Shown one piece after another: positions 11,865 to 61,978 of a stretch of DNA of 64,000 nt. The notes beneath the pieces were generated by a model. It worked only from the letters and a program-made list of their open reading frames with translations, searched no databases and was not told where the DNA came from. Position 1 is the first letter of the stretch, and every line of letters begins with the position of its first letter. Made by a program: the position numbers and the translations under genes. The stretch is from Lagopus muta (Eukaryota > Chordata > Aves > Galliformes > Phasianidae): the NCBI RefSeq assembly GCF_023343835.1, contig NC_064443.1, forward strand, positions 11,718,001 through 11,782,000. The letters run 5' to 3'.

Positions 11865-13000
11865 CCTTCCTGGTGCAGTGTGTGTGTGCTCTTTATTGCT
11901 CCCTGCAGCTGACAGCCCCCCACAGCGAGTACATCAGAGTGGGATTTACAGCAGCTACCCAGATTTCCCTGGATTGCCTGAGTTCCTTCTGTTATCAGGG
12001 CTTATGGAGAACAGCACTCACCCTATTGCAACAACCAGAACATGTTTGTACATGATCTGACCAGCACGTTTTGCTTTCCAGTGATAAAATTTTGCTGTCT
12101 TCTTTAAAAAGGAATAGAAATTTCTGTAGATGTTATTGCTCCCAATAGAACTGGCAGCTCAGGCATATTTGCCAAATAACTGTAGGAAGATGATCTGGGC
12201 TCTGTGCTGTTTCTCTGTTCCTTGAAGGACCACAATATTCCTTGAGTTCTTGCTTGGTGCTGCTGCATTCTGTGCCTTTTTTAACCTCACTAATAATTTG
12301 ATGAGAAAATGAGCCTTGGTACATGTTGGATGTTGGAACAAGATTATTTCACGTCTGCTTTTGCTTAAGCTTTGTTGAAAGCATTTAGTATTTTACAGTC
12401 AGTTTTTAAGTTAGGTGGGAGAGTAGTCCAGAAAAGGTGCCTGTTAGGAATCCAACAGCCTGCTTGGGAGACTGGACTGGAATCTTTAGATGTGGTTGGA
12501 AATGAGCTCTGCTGAGTGCTTACAGGGAGGCTTTGGGGCACCGTGTTTCTGTTTTCTTACGAATACCTCCTTTCAAGCACTGCAGGCTTTAGCTGACATA
12601 AGTATGCTGTATTTGCATCAGCAGGAGGAAGGTGAGAGCAGGCTGCCGCCTGTGGCACAGGAGCCCTGCCCTTCACGGCCTGACGCAGCTGGGCTCGCAG
12701 GGAATGGGATGGAGGGGATTGCTGCCAGGGGGACAAAACCCAAAGGTCAAATAGGGAAAGCTGCCCAGAACCTCGGCGTTCCTTTGTGCAGAGCGGTCAG
12801 AGAGCGGTTAGGGAGGTGGGAAATGCTTTCCCGTGAGCAGGGCCCTAACTCAGGCTGCACGGGGTGGCCGTTAGGTCGCTGCGGTGTTGCCATGCTGGCT
12901 CAGACCAATTCCTGACGAGATGCAGTTTTAGAAGAAGCATCCAGCTGGTTCTCAAGCTCAGGCTGTTTCATCTTGGGTGCTTTTTAAGTTATTGCAGTTT
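11865..13000. other. Intergenic region PRKAR2A-RPP14
   Basis: No gene, RNA or repeat recognised. The open frame at 12490-12915 has low-complexity, GC-leaning composition and no family resemblance. In human, PRKAR2A and RPP14 are far apart on 3p, so an ancestral rearrangement junction should lie between 7.4 and 13.4 kb. Confidence 0.6.
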
Positions 13001-13019
13001 TGATTTATTTGCAGAGCGA

Positions 13020-13850
13020 AGGCCCTTCCCTCCTCTCTGCTGCTTTTCCACGCGATCCCAGGGCTTTGTGCCCACGCGTCGCTCACAGCCGGGACTCGAA
13101 CGCAGCACCCAGCGCCGCCTCCTTACTGCTACGCTACGCGTGTTCGAACGTAGCACCGCGCGTGCGGCTCCGCGAAGGGATCGCGGTGGTCCCGTTTACG
13201 GTCACAAACTTATCAACAAGCCATCCGGCTGCTGATTAAGCTTTTAATTGGCGCTTTGACCTCCTTACGCTGCTTGTCCTCGAGGCTGGCAGATCGTCGG
13301 GCCCGCCTTCATCCCGCACTTCGGTCTCAAGCACCGCCTGCAGCTCCGCCCCGCCGCGGCCCCGCCGAGCCGCCGTAGAAAGGGGCGGCCGCCGCCGGGC
13401 GCATGGAGCGAGCGGAGCCGCCTGCGGCCGCCTACGAGCGGCGGGTGCTGGTGAGCGCGGCGCAGCACTGCTACCTGCGGGTCTGCCTGTGCGTAAGGCT
13501 CCGCTCCTCTGCGCCCCGCTCCTCGCCGCCCCCGAGCCCCAACTCCGCTCTGTTTCCCCGCAGGGAGCTCCCCGACGGCGCGGCCCGGCCCGGCGCCCCG
13601 CAGCTGAAGCAGCTGGTGGTGGCGGCGCTGCGGGAGCTGCACGGAGAGGTAAGGCGGGCGGATCGCGCCGAGCCGCGCGGAGCCCGGCTGCGCCTCACGG
13701 CGTCTCTGTGTGCAGGTTGGGGCCGCTTTGCCTGTCGACGTCTTGGCGTACGAGGAGAAAAGTCTGTGTGCCGTCCTGAGAGTGATTAGCGGGTAAGGAG
13801 CGCGAGAAAAAGCTCCATCGGAGAGCGGGCTGTGAGGAATAGCTGGGTAC
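13020..13850 (+). promoter_or_regulatory. RPP14: CpG-island promoter of RPP14/HTD2
   Basis: From about 13020 the sequence becomes rich in C, G and CpG, continuing through the first three RPP14 exons and fading after about 13850. No TATA box is evident near the start codon. The roughly 200 nt before the RPP14 ATG contain no upstream ATG. The transcription start cannot be fixed from sequence alone. Confidence 0.7.
13084..13145 (-). other. tRNA-like element with Pol III A-box and B-box motifs
   Basis: On the minus strand, TAGCGTAGCAG fits the A-box consensus TRGYNNARNNG, and CGTTCGAGTCC matches the B-box GGTTCGANTCC at 10 of 11 positions. The spacing from the A-box T to TTCGAG is about 36 nt, roughly 10 nt shorter than in a normal tRNA. 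A T-arm can be drawn with one mismatch (CTGCG/CCCGG), but no proper acceptor stem sits next to it. A degenerate tRNA-derived fragment or chance matches in GC-rich DNA are both possible; a working tRNA gene is unlikely. Confidence 0.25.
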
Positions 13851-15074
13851 AGCAGGGTGCGTGGAGCGTGAGGGAAACGGCGGGCTGTGAGAAAGGAGAC
13901 TGGGTCTGTTGTGACGGGACGGGGGAAGCGGTGTCAGGCTGGAGAGAGGAGAGCTAGGCTGAGCGCAAACAGCTCTTGCAATGAGCGCGGGGAGGCACAG
14001 GCTGCCCAGAGAGGTGCTGGATGCCTGCAGACAGCCGAGGTGAGGCTGGATGGGCTGTGAGCACCTGGTGGGGCTGTGGGCATCTCTGTGCATCGCAGGG
14101 AAGTGAGGCCAGACGACCTCTCATGCCCCATCCATCTCTTAACAGTTCTGTGAAATAAAAAGTCCCTCAGGTTTTGTGACCTGTGTGCATCCATACCTGC
14201 TGTAGAACAGAAGGGTCTGGAGGAGCAAAGCCCTGCTGGAAGGTGTGGTTCTAAATCTCTTCCTGTGAGAATGGGGGTCAGGTTTAAATGTTGGAGACAG
14301 CTGCAGGTGCTGTGGGGGAAATGGCACTGAAAGGCACAGGAAGAGCTTAAGAACAGGGCCAGTAACGTAACATGGTCACCATTAGCATCTGCCCCGTGTC
14401 AAGGACAAGGGTACAGCCCTTATAACAACCCTTCGTGACAGAGCTGCTACCAGAACTCACTGGTGCGTTACAGGTTGTCAAAGTCTGCCTCGTTACTGTG
14501 TAACATGTTTTAAAAACATTTATGCTGTGGGAAAAGAGAAAAAAAATCTTAATGTCCTTTGTCTTATTTTTACTCAGAGGCCTCGTCAAGCTGTGGAGTG
14601 CTCTGACCCTGCAGGGCTTCTACCAGAACAGGCGGTGTGCCTTCCGGGTACTGCAGGTAGGAGGGGGCCTCCCCACCATCAGTGCTGTGCTGCATGTTTG
14701 TTTGGCACCTTTCTTCCCTTTCATCCCATTTCTTCCCTTTCTAAAAGTCAGTAATGACCTCATGTAGAAATGGATGCATAAATGTGCACCTCCAGACCTT
14801 TTGTCTTTTCCCCCTGAGGATGCTGCTTAATAAAATGACTTCCACGAATTCTTTGTCTCTGAAGCCATGGCTAAACAAATTTCTGCTTAGTCATGGCTCT
14901 TACTTTAAAATCTTCTACATAAATGGGAGGATTAAATATTTTCAACTCTGGGTGCATTTGATGATTTTTTTATTTTTTAATGCTTCTCGTTTTCTTTTTT
15001 TCTTTCCCCAAAACAAGACATCTCCATTCCTTCTTGCGTTAGCTGGGAACAGCAGGGAGCTGGTCTTGGACTAA
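13403..15074 (+). CDS. RPP14: Ribonuclease P protein subunit p14
   Basis: Five coding exons: 13403-13488, 13564-13648, 13716-13792, 14578-14656 and 15018-15074. Joined they give 127 residues (human 124), beginning [14 protein letters not shown] and ending GNSRELVLD, with conserved blocks such as [26 protein letters not shown] and [17 protein letters not shown]. The product is a small protein of the Pop5/Rpp14 family in nuclear RNase P, which trims tRNA 5' leaders. Exon 1 must use the donor GTGCGT at 13489 to stay in frame; the nearby GTAAGG does not fit. The start ATG has C at -3 and G at +4, a weak context. The last exon also carries the HTD2 frame 37 nt downstream in another frame, as in the human bicistronic RPP14 message. 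Confidence 0.95.
13991..14155 (+). mobile_element. Old CR1 LINE 3'-end fragment in RPP14 intron 3
   Basis: Diverged CR1 tail in + orientation: GGCTGCCCAGAGAGGTGCTGGATGCC-like sequence, then GAGGCTGGATGGGCTGTGAG, GCCAGACGACCTC and AACAGTTCTGTGA, in the same order as the CR1 3' end. It is much more diverged than the copies at 8651 and 16999, so it is probably older. The body is absent. Confidence 0.7.
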
Positions 15075-15111
15075 GTCTCCAGTCTGGGTGGACTGTCAGA
15101 AGGTCCTTGAA

Positions 15112-15627
15112 ATGTTGCTGCTCTTCAGATGTGGAATTTCTAGAGGGGATTTCCGACACAGAGCTTCAACAAAGCTGGCGGTTACCAACCTGTTGTTTGG
15201 ATGTCCATTGCTTCAGAATTTACATATAAAAGTTGGAGACAAAGCTGAACTTACCAGAGTTTTTACACAGAATGATGTTCTTACTTTTTCTCATTTAACA
15301 GGTGACACAAATCCTTTGCATTTAAGTGAAGATTTTGCCAAGAAAACTAAATTTGGTAGAACTGTTGTACACGGAGTTTTGATCAATGGACTTATTTCTG
15401 CAGTTCTGGGTACTAAAATGCCTGGTCAGGGCTGTGTGTTTCTTTCCCAGGAGATTCGATTTCCAGCTCCTCTGTATACTGGAGAAGAAGTGATAGCTGC
15501 AGTGGAAGTGAAACGACTGAGGAGCTCTGTTGCACACGTCTCAGTATCGTGTAAAGTCAAAGAAAGTGGAAAGACTGTTATGGAAGGGATGGTGAAAGTC
15601 ATGGTGCCAGCAAGTTCGAGCTCTTGA
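15112..15627 (+). CDS. HTD2: Hydroxyacyl-thioester dehydratase type 2, mitochondrial
   Basis: Intronless frame of 171 residues (human about 168) in the last RPP14 exon. The product is the (R)-3-hydroxyacyl-thioester dehydratase of mitochondrial fatty acid synthesis, a hydratase-2/MaoC hot-dog fold enzyme. The signature [18 protein letters not shown] (residues 59-76) carries the catalytic Asp65 and His70; [15 protein letters not shown] follows. The N-terminus ([20 protein letters not shown]) is basic, hydroxylated and free of acidic clusters apart from one Asp, as in mitochondrial presequences. The frame is open further upstream, to a GTG at 15088 and beyond, but 15112 is the first ATG and gives the family length. 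It is not in frame with RPP14 (stop 15072-15074). Leaky scanning past the RPP14 start is the likely means of translation. Confidence 0.95.
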
Positions 15628-17730
15628 TCTTGTGTTTCTTACAGTAAAGACAGAAATGTATGCTTGGTTTTGACCACCTTTGTCACGTTCCATCTATTAA
15701 TGCAGTAAACTTGCAACAAAAAAACCTCTAGGATCATTCATCGACAGCAAACAAACACAATCCTGAGAGTAACTGCATCAAGAAACCTTTCAATTTTTCT
15801 GTGCAGCTCTGGAATTGGGCACTCACATCTGACAGACGTGGCCCATTTTGACAAACATCTGCTGTGCCACAGGGCTTGGAGTGAGGCTGCTCCTTGCAGC
15901 CCATCTGCAGGTCACACTAGTTAAGTTCAGCCAGAACATTTTTGCTGTTTATAAAATAGTTATATTGCTAACAAACGCGTGAGAAGGGATGGTGTTGTGC
16001 ATTTCAGTAAACCAGACAAGTGGAAGTGCTGACACTCACATACTGCAAGATTTCTTCAGGTAATCTGACTGAAGCTCTGGCTGATGGTGCTGCAGTGTGC
16101 TTTTCTGCACCGTTCTAACTTTTACATGGAAGTTGTAGTCAGCCTTTATACAAGCAATGTGTGCTTTCTGATAAAGCTTGTAGGTGCAGCTCTTGCATAT
16201 TTCACCAGGAATAATGGGGAGATCTCCTGAAAGCATGGGCTCTTCTCAGTGGCCGGCCCATAATTTTATGGCCAAACAAATGCTATCCTCCCATCTCCTC
16301 TGCAGCAGAACTGCATTCTGCGTTGATGCAGATAACCTCAGAAGTTGTTTGCTATGTGTGTGGTAACTGCTGAGTCCCAGCCTGAGCACCTGGGAAAGGA
16401 CCCGGTCGGCCTTGGGAGCACAGGTGAAGGCAGTTCAGCTGTAGTCCTCACTGAAGGCTGCCACTGGGAAAGGATCTCCTTCTGGAGATCTCTCCTTGGT
16501 GAAGCTTTCTCCTGTGAATCTGGAATCTTCTGATACGGGTGAGCAATCTTCTTCCCTTCCCTTATGGCACCTTTCTGTCGTGCTGATCTTTCTGTCATCA
16601 CACCTTTGTTGTAATGCCTCTCCCACGCTATTGATCTGTCCAATTGCTACACTATGGAGAGAAAGTTTGCCTTCAAACAATGCAGTGAAAGTACTAGTAA
16701 AATAGCTAAGCTATCCAGGTGCAGTGCAGCAACGAATCTTCTCACTCCTTCCCTGTAGCACCGACCCTCTGGATGCGATGTTAGGTTTGTGCCTGCTAAC
16801 AAAATGAACCGAAGCTGAGAGTGGAGCAGCAGGAGCAGTTTGCAGAGGAGCTTTTGTGCTCTTCAGCCACTCTGCTGTCAGCACGGGATGGCAGTGCTGT
16901 GCAAGGGATGGCAGGTGTGGCTCAGTGAGCCTTGTTCCTGCATACAGCTCTCTATGGGAGTCACTGAAACATAGGGATCGTGGGCTTTCCAGCTCAAAAA
17001 GCAAATGGTATCCTGGGCTCCATCAGAAAAGGGGTGGCCAGTAGGGATATGGAGGTGATTGTCCCCCTCTGCTCTGCTCTTGTGAAGCCCCATCTGGAGT
17101 ACTGTGTCCAGGTCTGGAGCCCCCAGTATAAGAAAGACAGCTGTTGGAGAGGGTCCAGAGAAGGCCACAGAGATGATCAGGGGGCTGGAGCACCTCCCCT
17201 ACGAGGACAGGCTGAGGGAGCTGGGCTTGTTCAACCCGAAGAAAAGGCTGTGGGGTGAGCTCAGTGCAGGCTCTCAGTACCCAAAGGGAGCCTACAGAGG
17301 GGAGGGGAATCAACTCTTTGAAAGGGTAGATAACAGCAGGACAAGGGGAAATGGTTTTAAGTTGAGGGAGGGAAGATTTAGCTTCAATGTCAGGAGGAAG
17401 TTCTTTACAGAGAGGTTGTGGATGCCCCGTCCATCCCTGGAGGTGTTCAAGGCCAGGTTGGATGGGGCCCTGGGCAGCCTGGTCTAAAATGGGGAGGTTG
17501 GTGGCCCTGCATGTGGCAGGGGGTTGGAGATTCACGATCCTTGAGGTCCCTTCAAACCCTGGCCATTCTGTGGTTCCCAAATAGGGTCTCAGTACCGCTG
17601 CAAGGAAATTTAATTGATTTCTATTGGGGAAAAAAAACAGTTGTACAGATTTCAGATGAGTGAGGGGAAGATGCTGAATCCTAGCGGAACTTTTTATGGC
17701 AGTTTCAACACCCGAGAGCCAGAAACAAGC
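15628..17730. other. HTD2 3' UTR and intergenic region to PXK
   Basis: Non-coding. Only variant poly(A) hexamers (AGTAAA at 15643 and 15704) are seen soon after the HTD2 stop; no canonical AATAAA was found, so the end of the transcript is not located. The CR1 copy at 16999-17575 fills the right part. Nothing else was recognised. Confidence 0.6.
16999..17575 (+). mobile_element. CR1 LINE, 5'-truncated 3' end
   Basis: About 575 bp CR1 in + orientation, from the conserved GGTATCCTGGGCTCCATCAG point to the tail (GGTCCCTTCAAACCCTGG, CCATTCTGTGG). The interior encodes the C-terminal reverse transcriptase region with [12 protein letters not shown] and NQLFERVDNSRTRGNGFKL. Compared with the copy at 8651-9261 it lacks about 35 bp between the FFTER codons and the tail, across a short AGAGAG repeat, which suggests a slippage deletion. 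It is an inverted partner of that first copy, with RPP14/HTD2 between them. Confidence 0.93.
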
Positions 17731-18960
17731 ACGGAGCTGCCCCCATCCCACCCTGTGCCGGCGGTACGGCACGGCTGCGCTCGGCGTTTCCGCCCCGGCG
17801 GTGAATTCGCGAGAGCCGCGCTCCCGCCGCGCGAGGCCCGAGCGGCGCGGGCACCCCGAGAACCCTGCGCGAGGCCGTCGGGGCGGCACGGCGCCCCCTG
17901 GCGGGCGGGCGGTCGCGGCGCAGGGCGGGCGGCGGCGCTAAGGCCCGGCGGGGCGGCGCGGGGCGGCGCGGCGCTGCCGTTGACAGCGGCGGTCGCGCCG
18001 GGAGCTGGCCGGGGAGGAGCGGGTCGGCGGCGCCGGGCTCCCGTCGCCCCTCCGCGGTATGGCTTTCATGGAGAAACCGCCGGCCGGCAAGGTGCTGCTG
18101 GACGACACGGTGCCGCTGACAGCGCAGATCGAAGCGAGCCAGAGCCTGCACTCGCACACGGTGAGGGCGGCGGGCCGGGCCGCGGCGCTGGGCTTTGAGG
18201 GGCGGCGACGAGGGGAGCCCGGGGTGAGGAGGGGAGCCCGGGGGGAGCAGGGCCGGGGGGAGCGGCGGGGTCCGGCTGCGGCGGGGCGGGGTGCGGCGCG
18301 GTGTCCCGCCGAGGTGCTGCGAGGTGGGGCGCGGAGGGCCGCAGCAGCGCCGTGCCGCCTCCGCCCGGCCCCGCGTGCCGGCGGCTCGGCGTGGCTCTGC
18401 GCGGCTCCTGCCTGCCGCCGGGCTCTGCCCGCGCTGTGACCCGGCGCGGCCGCTGCTGGGGCTCGGCTGTGCCCCGACCTTCGTCCGCCCGCAGGGAGGC
18501 CTCGCACCGCCCGCGCTCTCTGCTTTTCTCGTGATCCGTGACGGCTTTTAGGAGCGGCGATGGGTCCCGCCGCCTCGTTTCGGCAGCAGAGGCGAAGTTG
18601 CGCCGCGATGGGTCGCGCCCTGTCGGATGTCGGCGCGGTGCCGTCGCGCTCCCCGTGCAGGCGGTGCCGGCAGAGCTGCCCGGAGCGGCGTCTCACGGCC
18701 GGCCCGGCTGCCTGCAGGCCGCCTTCGTGAGCGCGCACCGACAGCCCTCATTATCTCCTGCCCGTGGTTGTTTTCCGCCTTGAGAACTGCGCTGTTAGGG
18801 GGTGAGCGAGCGGCGTGTGGCAGAGAAGCAGAGCGAGCGGGCTGCCGCTCCTGGCCGTGTGGGAGCAGCGATGCTGGGCCCTGCGGCAGCAGCAGGCCGG
18901 CAGGCAGCGCGCTGTGCACGGGGCGGGCTGAGCCAAGCGGTCCGTGCTTCAGCAGCGTTA
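17730..18960 (+). promoter_or_regulatory. PXK: CpG-island promoter and first intron start of PXK
   Basis: Very GC- and CpG-rich, including a GGGGCGGCGC-type tandem array at about 17948-17976 just upstream of the PXK start codon, with no TATA box seen. The island covers coding exon 1 (18059-18160) and runs into intron 1. Several long open frames on both strands are by-products of the lack of AT-rich stops. Confidence 0.8.
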
Positions 18961-27900: not shown

Positions 27901-30900
27901 TTTGGTGGAGATGGCAGAGAACCAATTTTGAGAAGGCTTTAGAGAGATGGAGAGTTCTTTTTTCAATCTTCTACAACAAGTTCCTCTTAACTGGGGGGAC
28001 AGAATGTTAAGGTGTTACAGGGCTTTGTTACCTTGAGCCAAGTCTATTGGAAAAGGCACTGGGCATTTGACTTCAAATTTAGGTGGAAGGTGTGATAAGC
28101 AAAGGTAAATAGCTTACATGTGTTGCAGTAAAGAAAGAGGCCTTTGTATCTGAGGCAGAGGTGAATGATAACAGTGAAGGTCTCTGGGAATTATTTGGTA
28201 GAACTTGCGGTATGGGCCAAGGAGGAATTTGAAATGAGGGAAAGAGTCTGCAGTGACAAGGTACTGAGATCTGGGACAACAGCATCAGCTCCTTGGATGA
28301 TTAGAAAAGATCAAAATGAATCATCAGGACATTCCCCTCTAAGTTAGATATAATGATATGTAGAGGGCAGCTAAATTAATAGCTCATCTTCATTAGCTCT
28401 TCATTTCCTTCAGTGAAAACTACTGCACACGCCCTCAGTCTCCAGCTCCTGCTTTTTTCTGCTTTTATAGACTGGAAAGCAAAGATGCATCTCTGCTTGG
28501 AGAAAAGCCTTTTCTGGCTGCTGTAGAGCCACTGCCTGAGGTGTCATCTTCAGCCCAGCAGAGGTGAATTTAGAGCCTTTACCAAGGTTGCAGAGCTCTG
28601 CTTCTGTCAGCCACCAGTGCTCCTTCAGACAGGGCTTGGGAGATGGCAGACAATAGGTGATGAGAAGCATGTTAAATTGCAGTTTTCCCCTGCTGTTCTG
28701 TTCTTAAGGTTTTTTATAAATTGCATAGATTGCTCTGAGGTGCTGGCGCTGAGGTTTTCTGATCCATTAAGACATGCAGCATTCCTCAGTTCTTTCCATC
28801 CAGAACTGTAAGCAACAGTATTTCATCAAAGTCCTCAGGTCCCATGACTTGTTAAACAATGTAAACTCTCATCTTGTGCACGGTGAGATTGATTAAAACA
28901 ACAACAAAAGAAACTAAAACCTCCAGACTCCAAAAACAGTAAAAAAAAATGAAGTGAACACTGGGTACAGGATTTACAGCAAGATGCCTGGCTTTCGTGA
29001 AGCATTTTATTGCAGCTTTTGAGCAGGCTGGGGCTTGAAGATAAGAAAAGTTCCTGGTTCTGCTGTAGCACAGCCCATCCAGAGCCACTGTGTGCTGGGA
29101 AGGTCAGGACCTCTGCGAGGTGGGGGCAGTGGTGGTGTTCTCACCGTGCTCTGGGTTTTGGAGATAAGTACAAAAACCTGGGGGGTGAACACTGCTTTCT
29201 GCTGAAAAACAGCAGATGTGAGGTTTATTGGAGGGGGGAAAGGAGTAATAGTCTGAAAACTTGTGAACTCAGGTCCTTTTCTCTCTGATGGTAGCTAGCT
29301 GTCAGGTCAAGAAGATAAAGGTGATTATGACTGGACGTGCTTTTCAAGTGAGTAATGTCAAAAATGCATTTAGTTTCTACTTAGAAGCTCTGTTGAATTG
29401 AAGGAGCGGTCTGCCAAATGCGGGCCTTGCATGCCTGTGGTGTTAGAGCTGATTTGGAGAATTGCAGGTTGTAAGTGATGCATTGTTGCTCTGGGGTTTA
29501 TTCCCAGATGTTTTTTTGCTTTCCCCAAGGGTGTGTAAAAGAACTATAATGAAAGATCAGTGGACAGGACGATTTGGGTTAACATCTGCAATATAGACAT
29601 AGTTGTCGTTCTTTTTCAGGCTGTGGTTTGTAGTCAGAGCCAGAGGCAGCACCAGGGTTTGATGGGGGGAAGCAACTCATGGGTTCAGAAGGAGGAAGAA
29701 AAAAGGAAAGAGATTGCTGCCTCTGCCACAGTTGGTTGAACTGATCCTTCCTCTCTCCACTGATTGAAATGAGGATTGTTCAAGCCCCCCCACCTTCCTC
29801 TGAGTGACTTGTTTGCTTTGCAAGTGGGGTTACTGCACAGAGTGTAATTGATTGCTGTGATGCACGTTTCTAAAAGATAACTCCCGTGGAGACTCTGCAC
29901 ACCCCGGGCAGGTGCTTAGATCTGCAGGACAGTTATGTGTTAGCAGTGTCAAACATTGATTGTGGCTATTCATGTGATGTAATTAAATATAAGCAGTGTG
30001 CAGCCTGCGTTTGTTTTCTAATGATGATCTCTCTGATCTCACCCACTTAACGCTTTGGGCAACTTTGGAAAAGTTGCACTGTATCTGAAATTACAGATTT
30101 GATATACTGAAATAAGGGCTTTAAGCTACCCATAAAAGCAGTGGAGGCAAGAGGAAAGTTGTTAATCTGTACTTCTTTAGATAAAAAAACACAAATCTTG
30201 CCAGGAGAAAATGATAAGGTGTGTGCACAAAGGTATGTAATAGCATTTGGCTGAAATGTAGCCATTTGGAGTCTGAAAGCTCTGTGCTGTGATCTTAAAT
30301 GCACGACTCTCCAGCAAAAATTGGTCTTGCATTTTCAGCGTTGTTCCATTTATGAAGCTCTTCACACTGGGATGCAGTGTGCACAGCTATTGTCTGACTG
30401 CCTCTCCCTGATAACAGTACTTTGAAACAAAATATAGGAGCTTACATACATACAGTGTGGAAAGAATTATCTGGTAGTCAGCTCGCTGCTAGGAGTCTTA
30501 CTTTCTGTGCTGTTAGTTTACATCCCCGAGGCACTTTAAGAGCACCGTTAGTAATTTTTCTTCTCTGTTTAAGATCTCATCTCTAAGTCTACCTCTTCCT
30601 CCAAAAAAACTGATTGGAAACATGGAGCGTGAATTCATAGCAGAAAGACAGAAAGGACTGCAGGCCTATCTCGATGTGATTACTTCCCATCACATACTGT
30701 CTAACTGTGAACTGGTAAAAAAGTTCTTGGATCCAAACAGCTATTCTGTAAACTACACTGGTAAGTGGGGAACTGTAAAACCGCATTACAGCTTCACTGC
30801 AGCATGTGTGCGTGTCTTCCAGCCGTGCTGGTGGGGATTTACACTGAAGCATGTTGCAGCAGAGGGAGGGGGGAGCAACCATCACAACCATCGCATATCA

Positions 30901-33900
30901 TCACAGGCACAGTATAGCAGTGTTTGCCCAGGTCTGTGGATGAGTCGTGCTGTGACAGCCAAATCCAGGTGTTTAAATTAACATCTATATAATCTGAACC
31001 TGAGGGGGGGGGAGGAAATGAAACTGAAATGTGTTTTCGCAGTTGGTGAATGGGAGGATTGGTGTCTGGAAGTTATTTATCAGTGGTAAACCAGCTGGTC
31101 AGTTCTGCAGGTTGCTCTCACCGCTGCTCTTCTGAACACAGAATCTCGCAGTCGTAAGGGTTCTTATATGTTTCAAATCAACAGAAACAGCTGCTGTCAT
31201 CTTGTCTAGCTCTCACTGCCAGTTAGGGCTGCAATATTTCGTAGAACTAATTGTCTGAGATATGTTTGATGTTTTTTCAAGGCTTGAGCGAAAGCCTTCC
31301 TCCCCCCTCACGTGGAAAATCACTGCAGCCCTTCAAATGATACCTCAGTGATCAGTTCTCTTCATTATTAAATGTCTCTCCTTTAATTTTCTCTGGCTTC
31401 GGCCACTGGAAACTGCTAGAATTTGTCTGATAGACCGAAAAACTTCCTCTTCATGAAACCCATCCGTAGATTTACTTCACAGGCAGACTGACTCTTTGCA
31501 GAATGCAAAGCTTGTTTTCATAAAAGCACAGCCTGCTCAAGCAGGAACTTACTGCTTCCTTTTTACTTGTCTTTTTGCTCTCCCTTTATGTAACATTCTG
31601 TTTTCAACTTCAAAGTGCAAAGAACATTTCCCGAATGCTTATGATAAGCCGTGGAGGAGATGTAAATTGTTAGTAACTCTAAGGATGCAGTTTGTCTGGC
31701 TAATGCTGAGCAAGCAGTTTGAATCCTGTAGGAGATACAGTGACTTCTGTGTTAATTCTGAGTGCTTTCATCAAGACTATTTTTCCTTCTGCAAGTTGCA
31801 GGGAGGTTAAGTAGCAGTGAGGTGGCTGCCTGTGGTCTTTGGAGACAACATCAGCGTGTCATCTTTTAATATAGCAGAGAGCTGACATTTAGTGCACTGT
31901 TCCATTTTTCTTAGCATATTTTTAGATTGAGAAGTTCATGTGCAGAAAAATATGGTGCATTCTTACCTTTTTGTTGTGCTCCTAAGCCAAGATAAGCTGT
32001 GTTTGAGAAAACTCCTTGCTGGCATGATTCCCTTTCTGCACTTGTTGTCATCACTTCTCACAGATTTCTCCTCCAATGTGCTCATGAATACACTGGTTGT
32101 ATTCTCAGCTGTGGGAGAGCTCAGTAAACAGAAGTGTGTCCTTTCCTTTTTCTTTTCCTTTTCTTTTATCTTTTTATCTTTTTTTCCCTTTTTCCTTTCT
32201 TTTCCTCTCAGAAATGCATATTGGATCACAATAGCTAGAAAAATATCTTATTAAATGTACAGTAAGGAGGTTTACAAGGTAGCACTTCTATAGGTATGGC
32301 GAAAACATTTTCTGATCTACTGTAGGGTGTTCTGTGTGTGAGAAGTCTTTGCTATGAGCATTAGATTTAGACTTGGGAATGTAGATGTAGTAGAAATAGA
32401 ATGCAAACTCAGTAGGCCATGCTTTCTGAAGGCAGTGCTTTCTGTTTTCTCTGTGGATTTGAGTTCTCAGGTTATAAATGCAAATGCCTTCTAAGTGTGG
32501 TTTTATCTGATTTCCTTTTAAAGTGATTTTGCTGACTGAGTCTGAAATCCCGCAGGCTTGAACCTTACCTTAACAATGTAAAAATCACATTAAATGGTCT
32601 CTTATTTTTTTTTCTCCCCAGAAATTGCCTTACAGCATGTTTCAATGTTCTTCCGATCAGAGCCAAAGTGGGAGGTAGTAGAACCATTAAAAGATATAGG
32701 TAAGAAGAGCATGTATGCACAAAAGCTTGCTGTGTTTTTTCCAATGAGTTGTCATAATCTATTGTTGCTTACAAACTTTGTCCTGCATGTAGGCCATGTG
32801 ATTTAGCAGGGCTTTAATTAAAACTGGTGATGACTCTTTTCTTGCAGGTTGGCGAATACGTAAGAAATATTTTTTAATGAAGGTAAAGAATCAACCAAAG
32901 GAACGGCTGATGTTAAGCTGGGTACGTGTCCTTTCGTCTTATTCTCAAGTCTTTCATAATGAACTTGCCTTATTTCACTTATATTGGCTACCAGATAGGA
33001 GTGACAGCCAGTGTTAAGAGTTCAGGCTCTGAAGGCCTTGAGCCATCATGTAGGTGCGTGATGTGGAAACTTCTTTGTGAGATTTGCTGAAGGGTGGATA
33101 TTGCTGAAGCCTGCAGTGGAAGGGAAGATGGTTTTGGTACAGAAGAAGGTGGAGATTGATGCTTTATTCGTTCACAGTCCGCACAGTCCCTCAGTTGGGG
33201 CTTGGCAAAGTTCATTCAGTGGTAGCAATACGGATCAGCTACCAGGGAGGAAGCAGGCAATAAGACATACTGTCAGATGTTTTGTATTGTGAAACCATGA
33301 CCTTATGCAGCCTTCTAATTTTTTTTTTTTCCACGTAGAATTTCCTTCCTTGCACTTCAAAATATATTTTGAAGCATTTGCCTTCATTTATAAGAGCAGA
33401 ATATAGATCAAATGTTATGGAATGTAACATCAATTGTGATACCTTTCTTTTCCTATTTATTTTTAGGCTGATCTTGGCCCTGATAAATACTTGTCTGACA
33501 AAGACTTACAGTATGCTGTGAAACTTCTTTCTTCCTGTTCTGTGAGTATTAGTTGAAGACCTTTCAATTATTCCAGCACAAAATAAGTGGTTGCAAAGGC
33601 TGATCTTGCACGTAGTCTAGTAGACATGATTTATAATTTCAGAGTTGCTTTCATTTAAAGGTGTGTGAACTTTTTAATTAAGTTTCCCACACAGTGTGAA
33701 GTAACATATTCTCAGCACAAATAATAATCCTGCTGAATTGTTGCAGGGCTTTCGGAGTTGTGGCTAATTGTATTCTTCTCTTCTGGTGCTGTACTGTGAG
33801 ATCACGTGCTTTTATTTCATTTTCTCAACGCTTTCAGGCTGTTGGGATATTTTTCTAACCAGAATACTGGGAACATTCTTGGGCAGCAGAGGAATGAGTG

Positions 33901-60123: not shown

Positions 60124-61978
60124 GTAAGTGATCCCGAGTGAATGTGTGTGTGCTGAGCAGCACAACTGGGCTTTCAAGATCTTGAGGTAAGATTCCTTGT
60201 TGATCTGTCCTGTGTGGATCGAGGCTTCGCAGTGTGAGAACAAGAGTTGTGCATGTAGTAACAGCTTGCTCACGTTTTCTGGAGTGCTTTGTCGTATGTG
60301 CCATTTGTGGGATGTGCTCATGTTCATATAGCCTAGCTAAAATCAGCAAGAATTTAACTGATGTCTTAAGCTCATTGTTACCATTTTCCTAACACACACA
60401 GACTGAAAAGAGTTTGTGCTTCTTGCCTATAATTTTAAGGACTTTCTTGCATTATTTATAAGGAAAAAATATTTTTCCTTTAAACCTTGTCTCAAATCAG
60501 ACAAATGTATCTTATTTTTCTCCTGTTCTCATTCTCTAAACATTCTGCTGCCGTGCATATGTCGCTTTTTTTTTTTTTTTTCCACTGTCTGGCCTCAGTC
60601 CTGACTGTTAGGATGGTGGCCAGATGGGATTTATGTTGCTTTCTTCTTGCTTCCTCATGTACTATCTGGAAGCTGATGCAGACTGGTTTGGTGCTCTGCC
60701 CCCTCTTCTACGCAGCATGCTAATTTTCTAATAAATGCTTCTTCTGAGAATTAAAAGCTGGAAGGCTTTAGTTCTCTTGTTTTAATAATTCCTCTTAACC
60801 AGTGCATGGATTATTTTGATTGTGAGCTCTTTGTCTTGTGCCTAAACTTGTACTGTCTTCCTCTTTTGAGGGTGAAAAAGTCTTAAGACTTGTTCAGCTG
60901 ATTTGCTGTTATTCTTGAATGAGATTTTGAAAGCGAGGAGCACTGATGGACCTCATTCACATAAACTTGTTCTTCAGGAAATGTCTCTGATTTCATTTCC
61001 TCATCTGTAAAATATGAAAAAACTTGTTCCTCAAGTGCAAAAGTGCCTTCTGTGACAGTAGCCCTGTTAAGATTTCTAAAGCATTCTCAAACTGTGCTTT
61101 CTAAATGTTGTTATCCTGTCTAGCTGTGCCTTGTTGCTAGGCTTTGTTCAGGTTTAAACATCACTGAAAGACTTCAAATAGGAGAAGTGAGGTTCCTTCC
61201 AGAGCCACCAGTTCTCAAGCAGTATTTGCCATGTGCCTTGGTGAACCTTCTTGTCGTGGCTTGATAAACTCTGCGATTTCTCTCTTTCTAGATGACTGAT
61301 CCAGTCACGCTAAATGTGGGTGGACACATGTACACGACATCCCTCACAACTCTCACCAGATATCCTGACTCAATGCTTGGGGCCATGTTCAGGGGAGACT
61401 TCCCCACTGCCAGGGACTCTCAGGGCAATTACTTCATTGACAGAGACGGACCACTTTTCCGTTACGTTCTTAACTTCTTAAGGACCTCAGAGCTAACTTT
61501 GCCACTGGACTTCAAGGAGTTCGACCTACTTCGGAAGGAGGCGGACTTCTATCAGATTGAACCTCTGATTCAGTGTCTCAACGACCCCAAGCCTCTGTAT
61601 CCTGTGGATACCTTTGAGGAGGTGGTGGAGCTTTCCAGCACCCGCAAGCTGTCCAAGTACTCCAACCCGGTGGCTGTGATCATCACGCAGCTCACCATCA
61701 CAACGAAAGTCCATTCGTTACTGGAAGGCATTTCAAACCACTTCACGAAGTGGAATAAGCATATGATGGACACCAGGGACTGCCAGGTTTCCTTCACTTT
61801 TGGGCCATGCGATTACCACCAGGAAGTGTCTCTCAGAGTGCATCTTATGGAGTACATCACAAAGCAAGGCTTCACGATCAGGAATACCAGAGTTCATCAC
61901 ATGAGTGAGCGTGCCAATGAAAACACAGTGGAGCACAACTGGACTTTTTGTAGACTGGCACGAAAAACAGATGACTGA
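60097..61978 (+). CDS. KCTD6: BTB/POZ domain-containing protein KCTD6
   Basis: Two coding exons, 60097-60123 and 61292-61978, give 237 residues, the human length. The first nine residues (MDNGDWGYM) come from the small exon and the rest from one long exon starting MTDPVTLNVGG. The BTB/T1 domain spans about residues 12-110 (LNVGGHMYTTSLTTLTRYPD, FIDRDGPLFRYVLNFLR, ADFYQIEPLIQCL). The C-terminal half is the conserved KCTD6/21 tail ending CRLARKTDD. The family forms pentamers and acts as an adaptor for cullin-3 ubiquitin ligases; mammalian KCTD6 targets include small ankyrin-1 and HDAC1. The intron sits between two ATG codons (Met9 and Met10), so a transcript skipping exon 2 could still make a 228-residue form with an intact BTB domain. 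Confidence 0.96.

Follow-up and report, generated by a model that had tools for sequence, protein, structure and literature searches.

How the second of two unrelated proteins is made from a single vertebrate message, and whether the first reading frame has been shaped to let ribosomes reach it, are the questions raised by the RPP14/HTD2 locus in the window, i.e. the 64,000-nucleotide stretch of Lagopus muta DNA analysed here. Judged by sequence matches, the locus represents in a bird the bicistronic RPP14/HTD2 gene already known from vertebrates, with which it shares the two open reading frames (ORFs), their order and the protein families. RPP14 is encoded on the forward strand by five exons with GT/AG borders, which when spliced specify a protein of 127 residues: coding exon 1 at 13403..13488, with the start ATG at 13403-13405, a GT donor, a splice-checked translation and a match to human p14; exons 2, 3 and 4 at 13564..13648, 13716..13792 and 14578..14656, each with a splice-checked translation; and the coding part of exon 5 at 15018..15074, the last coding exon, ending with the TAA stop at 15072-15074. 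The protein matches the human RNase P subunit p14 over residues 6-127 (PDB 6ahr_H, E 9.1e-44, phmmer) and falls into Pfam family PF01900 above the cut-off. On the same strand, following an ATG-free spacer of 37 nt (15075..15111), the intronless HTD2 ORF (15112..15627, start ATG at 15112-15114) specifies a MaoC-type dehydratase of 171 residues (PF01575, E 1.1e-18; human HTD2 structure 3ir3_A, E 3e-63), whose arginine-rich N-terminus looks, by eye, like a mitochondrial presequence. Because no coding exon follows the one with the RPP14 stop, a message carrying both ORFs would need no splice junction 3' of that stop.

The 480 nt 5' of the RPP14 start (12923..13402, forward strand) are ATG-free and CpG-rich (CpG o/e 1.13), and probably comprise the promoter and the 5' leader of RPP14. 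From the promoter to exon 3 the GC content is 0.68 and the CpG o/e 1.09, followed by 0.53 and 0.42 in intron 3 and by 0.39 and 0.15 in intron 4. GC3 declines along RPP14 between its first quarter (0.94) and its last (0.71), as expected with the first three exons placed in the CpG-rich stretch. We note that GC3 also steps sharply between the two ORFs, from 0.82 in RPP14 to 0.33 in HTD2.

In the spliced message, the two start codons (13403 for RPP14, 15112 for HTD2) are separated by 418 nt that hold no ATG in any frame, junctions included, as the initial annotation of this DNA had claimed, and its observation that the 200 nt upstream of the RPP14 ATG also lack ATG extends to the full 480 nt, the closest upstream ATG being located at 12920. 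Within the 516 nt of the HTD2 ORF, ATG occurs 10 times if the start codon is included. Position -3 had likewise been read correctly, with a C before the RPP14 start and a G before that of HTD2, but the ranking of the first start as weak and the second as better is less clear once position +4 is considered, where RPP14 has G and HTD2 has T. Compared to the RPP14 start, the HTD2 start is hence better at -3 and worse at +4, so that both are intermediate by Kozak's usual rule on positions -3 and +4, and the two contexts are not cleanly separated. Near-cognate codons persist between the two AUGs (21 CTG and 12 GTG), eight of those checked (CTG, GTG, TTG, ACG, ATT and ATC) combining a purine at -3 with G at +4; this content is neutral and does not decide on leaky scanning.

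How unusual an ATG-free interval of this kind is was assessed using gene-internal controls. The expectation of about six ATGs given previously is roughly that of a uniform base composition; for the real composition, base shuffling of the 418 nt predicts 4.5 (P0 0.008), while dinucleotide shuffling yields a mean of 1.45 (P0 0.13). Permutation of synonymous codons within RPP14 gives a mean of 0.35 (P0 0.68), an expectation too low for much power, and shuffling of the codon order a mean of 0.36 (P0 0.69), hardly able to show depletion; permutation of the gene's own codons presupposes the methionine-free protein and the whole codon bag of RPP14. Given this protein and this codon bag, scant room is left for ATG, with only nine pairs of neighbouring residues at which a synonymous change could create one out of frame. 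Each of the 11 NAY codons has C in third position, five of five before G, where T would create an ATG, and six of six elsewhere, and as the sites without risk are equally C-ending, this bias is not aimed at ATG. A third-position A occurs in none of the four codons before TGN, versus 9 of 103 elsewhere. One explanation would be that purifying selection keeps the interval ATG-free so that scanning ribosomes reach HTD2; we regard this proposal, which is compatible with leaky scanning, as unlikely. The zero count against the 4.5 predicted by base composition alone speaks for it; the outcome of the synonymous permutation, with its little power, and the equal C bias at NAY codons without risk speak against it.

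A genome baseline was assembled from 60 forkhead and rhodopsin-type GPCR loci of the same genome (30 of 52 and 30 of 150 matches listed, respectively), 59 of which were kept, with one (L030) excluded for a stop. The baseline is rough, since some open frames may overrun exon ends and the GPCRs may be methionine-rich. It provides 649 overlapping segments of 127 codons each. In those with a GC3 of 0.75-0.87 (168 overlapping segments, 25 loci), in-frame ATGs average 2.89 per segment and out-of-frame ATGs 1.82; 20% of these segments are without out-of-frame ATG, 14% without in-frame ATG and 4.8% without both. At a GC3 of at least 0.87 (229 segments, 27 loci), the corresponding fractions are 60%, 6% and 3.9%, and among 38 non-overlapping segments with a GC3 of 0.75-0.89, eight lack out-of-frame ATGs, five lack in-frame ATGs and one lacks both. 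Recoding RPP14 with the usage of the 32 sampled ORFs with a GC3 of at least 0.75 gives a mean of 0.94 ATGs (P0 0.37), compared to 1.79 (P0 0.13) with all 59 ORFs, 2.60 (P0 0.036) with the 14 ORFs at GC3 0.5-0.75 and 3.56 (P0 0.012) with the 13 ORFs below 0.5; under the two lower-GC3 usages a zero count would be unlikely, which tells against a mere by-product. Methionine makes up 2.14% of residues in the sampled ORFs, and at that rate the chance of 126 methionine-free residues is 0.065. That about 5% of the GC3-matched segments are equally empty can be counted in favour of selection. By the segment, recoding and methionine-frequency baselines, the zero ATGs of RPP14 lie towards the lower extreme without clearly standing out for a gene of such GC3.

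Comparison at the DNA level was confined to the window's own genome. A PF01900 search of the genome gave at least two matches, both of them exons of one gene (locus L033 on contig C20), the RPP14 exons ranking below those listed. Spliced by hand, this gene encodes 166 residues matching human POP5 (6ahr_E, E 3.2e-65), and the protein, as an observation on the side, is without internal methionine, like that of RPP14. POP5 resembles RPP14 in belonging to the PF01900 family, in its GC-rich exons (GC3 0.90) and in being ATG-free for 418 nt beyond the start codon; the full 501 nt contain one ATG past the start, at nt 482 and out of frame. It differs in its stronger start context, with G at both -3 and +4, and in that no second ORF was seen at the gene by eye. 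An AATAAA lies approximately 125 nt past its stop, and we take POP5 to be monocistronic. A relative without the supposed need is therefore equally ATG-free over that length, with no second protein in sight. Searches of viral contigs returned 19 pattern matches for RPP14 and three for HTD2, and searches of genome contigs 515 for RPP14, none of which was confirmed.

The human proteins point in the same direction. In the aligned residues 3-124, the human p14 chain has one methionine, Met22, positioned opposite a leucine of bird RPP14, which is without internal methionine, and between its two starts the human RPP14 mRNA hence holds at least one AUG, which is in frame with RPP14. In human POP5, residues 2-160 are free of methionine. 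For selection, one may cite that bird RPP14 lacks internal methionine throughout its 127 residues and that the aligned human chain has only one; against it stand the human in-frame AUG itself, the equally ATG-free POP5 of the bird and the methionine-free stretch of human POP5. As far as these comparisons reach, absolute ATG clearance is not general to RPP14, and freedom from methionine is not special to it.

The view that the message was cleared of ATGs for the benefit of HTD2 thus finds no backing in the codon-shuffled control that had been put forward for it (mean 0.35, P0 0.68, little power), nor in the equally empty POP5 or the internal methionine of human RPP14. What stands of the interpretation in the initial annotation is the bicistronic gene with a layout that allows leaky scanning; clearance for that purpose gains no support. 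A special ATG clearance in the RPP14/HTD2 message is not supported and selection against ATG in RPP14 is unproven. Instead, the absence of ATG is quite probably a by-product, mainly of GC-rich codons in and near a promoter rich in CpG, and of the lack of internal methionine in the first protein.

We propose that HTD2 is translated as follows. Ribosomes would scan from the cap, and a part of them would initiate at the RPP14 AUG with its C at -3 and G at +4. The remaining ribosomes would bypass this codon and meet, as the next AUG, the HTD2 start 421 nt downstream, a passage that the AUG-free interval would aid. Leaky scanning is the likeliest route to HTD2, and we hold it with reasonable, though lesser, confidence than the by-product explanation of the ATG absence; for the joint statement, leaky scanning together with ATG absence as a by-product, we consider the chances even. 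The bicistronic arrangement itself is established for vertebrates (Autio et al. 2008, as cited in PMC4705651, PMC5932603 and PMC8509007), and HTD2 is reported to be translated in mammals. A review considers leaky scanning and/or reinitiation likely for RPP14/HTD2.

Reinitiation, in which ribosomes terminate at the RPP14 stop and restart 37 nt downstream for HTD2, shares that endorsement in the review, and the spacer is short as well as ATG-free. The leader of the rat message carries a translated upstream ORF, which in PC12 cells reportedly affected both ORFs together, an effect that fits any scanning-coupled route. However, RPP14 is 127 codons long, and the review cites a prediction, derived from HIV-1 tat mRNA, by which upstream ORFs exceeding 55 codons block reinitiation. 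Plain reinitiation is disfavoured due to this length of the first ORF, and we judge it improbable, somewhat more so than selection on the interval. Least probable of the routes, in our estimate, is a shorter transcript of HTD2's own, for which either an intronic promoter (intron 3 or 4) or alternative splicing that omits the RPP14 start would account. Its main attraction is that the peptides found for Rpp14 in rat hippocampus came exclusively from HTD2 (PMC6825209), which would be odd for a minor leaky product and favours an HTD2 expression that is either efficient or separate. Conversely, neither intron 3 nor intron 4 resembles a CpG island, unlike the stretch from the promoter to exon 3, which still leaves room for a promoter free of CpG islands, and the joint response of both ORFs to the leader upstream ORF in PC12 cells argues against separate messages. 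Leaky scanning from a shared message remains our preferred route.

The closest known systems show what is already established. The bicistronic RPP14/HTD2 gene is known, and so is AUG depletion before ORF2 as a signature. In the bicistronic genes of green algae, the median observed/expected AUG before ORF2 is 0.49 and 0.43 (PMC11291117, also PMC11892635). As in RPP14/HTD2, the upstream ORF is AUG-poor, and algal spacers are often shorter than 100 nt (PMC11291117). The first start context is described there as weak, whereas that of bird RPP14 is intermediate, and the algal depletion was determined for gene sets (n=35 and 41) relative to monocistronic controls, whereas the bird case is one gene without clear excess over codon-aware controls. 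The dicistronic stoned and Snapin transcripts of Drosophila also have a first cistron deficient in internal AUGs (Wall et al. 2005, as summarised in PMC11291117). These algal and Drosophila precedents lend selection on the RPP14 interval some plausibility. The leaky-scanning mechanism was established by mutation in green algae and demonstrated with reporter mutants for stoned and Snapin, according to the same source, whereas in the bird it is inferred. A literature search, with most subscription journals outside its scope, found no published statement on the absence of AUG in RPP14.

It is conceivable, but in our view doubtful, that in birds, and perhaps in vertebrates, weak selection for an AUG-free, methionine-poor state of RPP14 keeps HTD2, an enzyme of mitochondrial fatty-acid synthesis, translated. 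If this were true, the evolution of an RNase P subunit would be steered in part by a second protein further down the message. A selected clearance would make RPP14 a vertebrate case of an ORF constrained by ribosome passage, and would help to explain how two unrelated proteins come to share one message. The more immediate lesson is that regulation should not be read from ATG counts in GC-rich exons until these have been compared with a paralogue and with controls that respect codon usage.

In the surroundings of the locus, neither AATAAA nor ATTAAA is present in 15628-18500, i.e. the 2.9 kb past the HTD2 stop, which holds only variant hexamers, e.g. AGTAAA at 15643 and 15704. The stretch at 17000-17480 looks like the 3' portion of a LINE of CR1 type. 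On the reverse strand 5' of RPP14, at 13085-13150, words resembling the A-box and B-box of the tRNA consensus were spotted by eye. This tRNA-like candidate was rejected: ARAGORN, run with bacterial settings, predicted no tRNA anywhere in the window, and Rfam on 12500-16500 gave only one weak, unrelated match, with E up to 5. Further downstream on the forward strand, domain matches identify an open frame with a PX domain, probably PXK, at 30517-30978 and one with a BTB_2 domain, probably KCTD6, at 61292-61975. The order RPP14/HTD2, PXK, KCTD6 agrees with the gene list of human chromosome 3 (PMC8385949).
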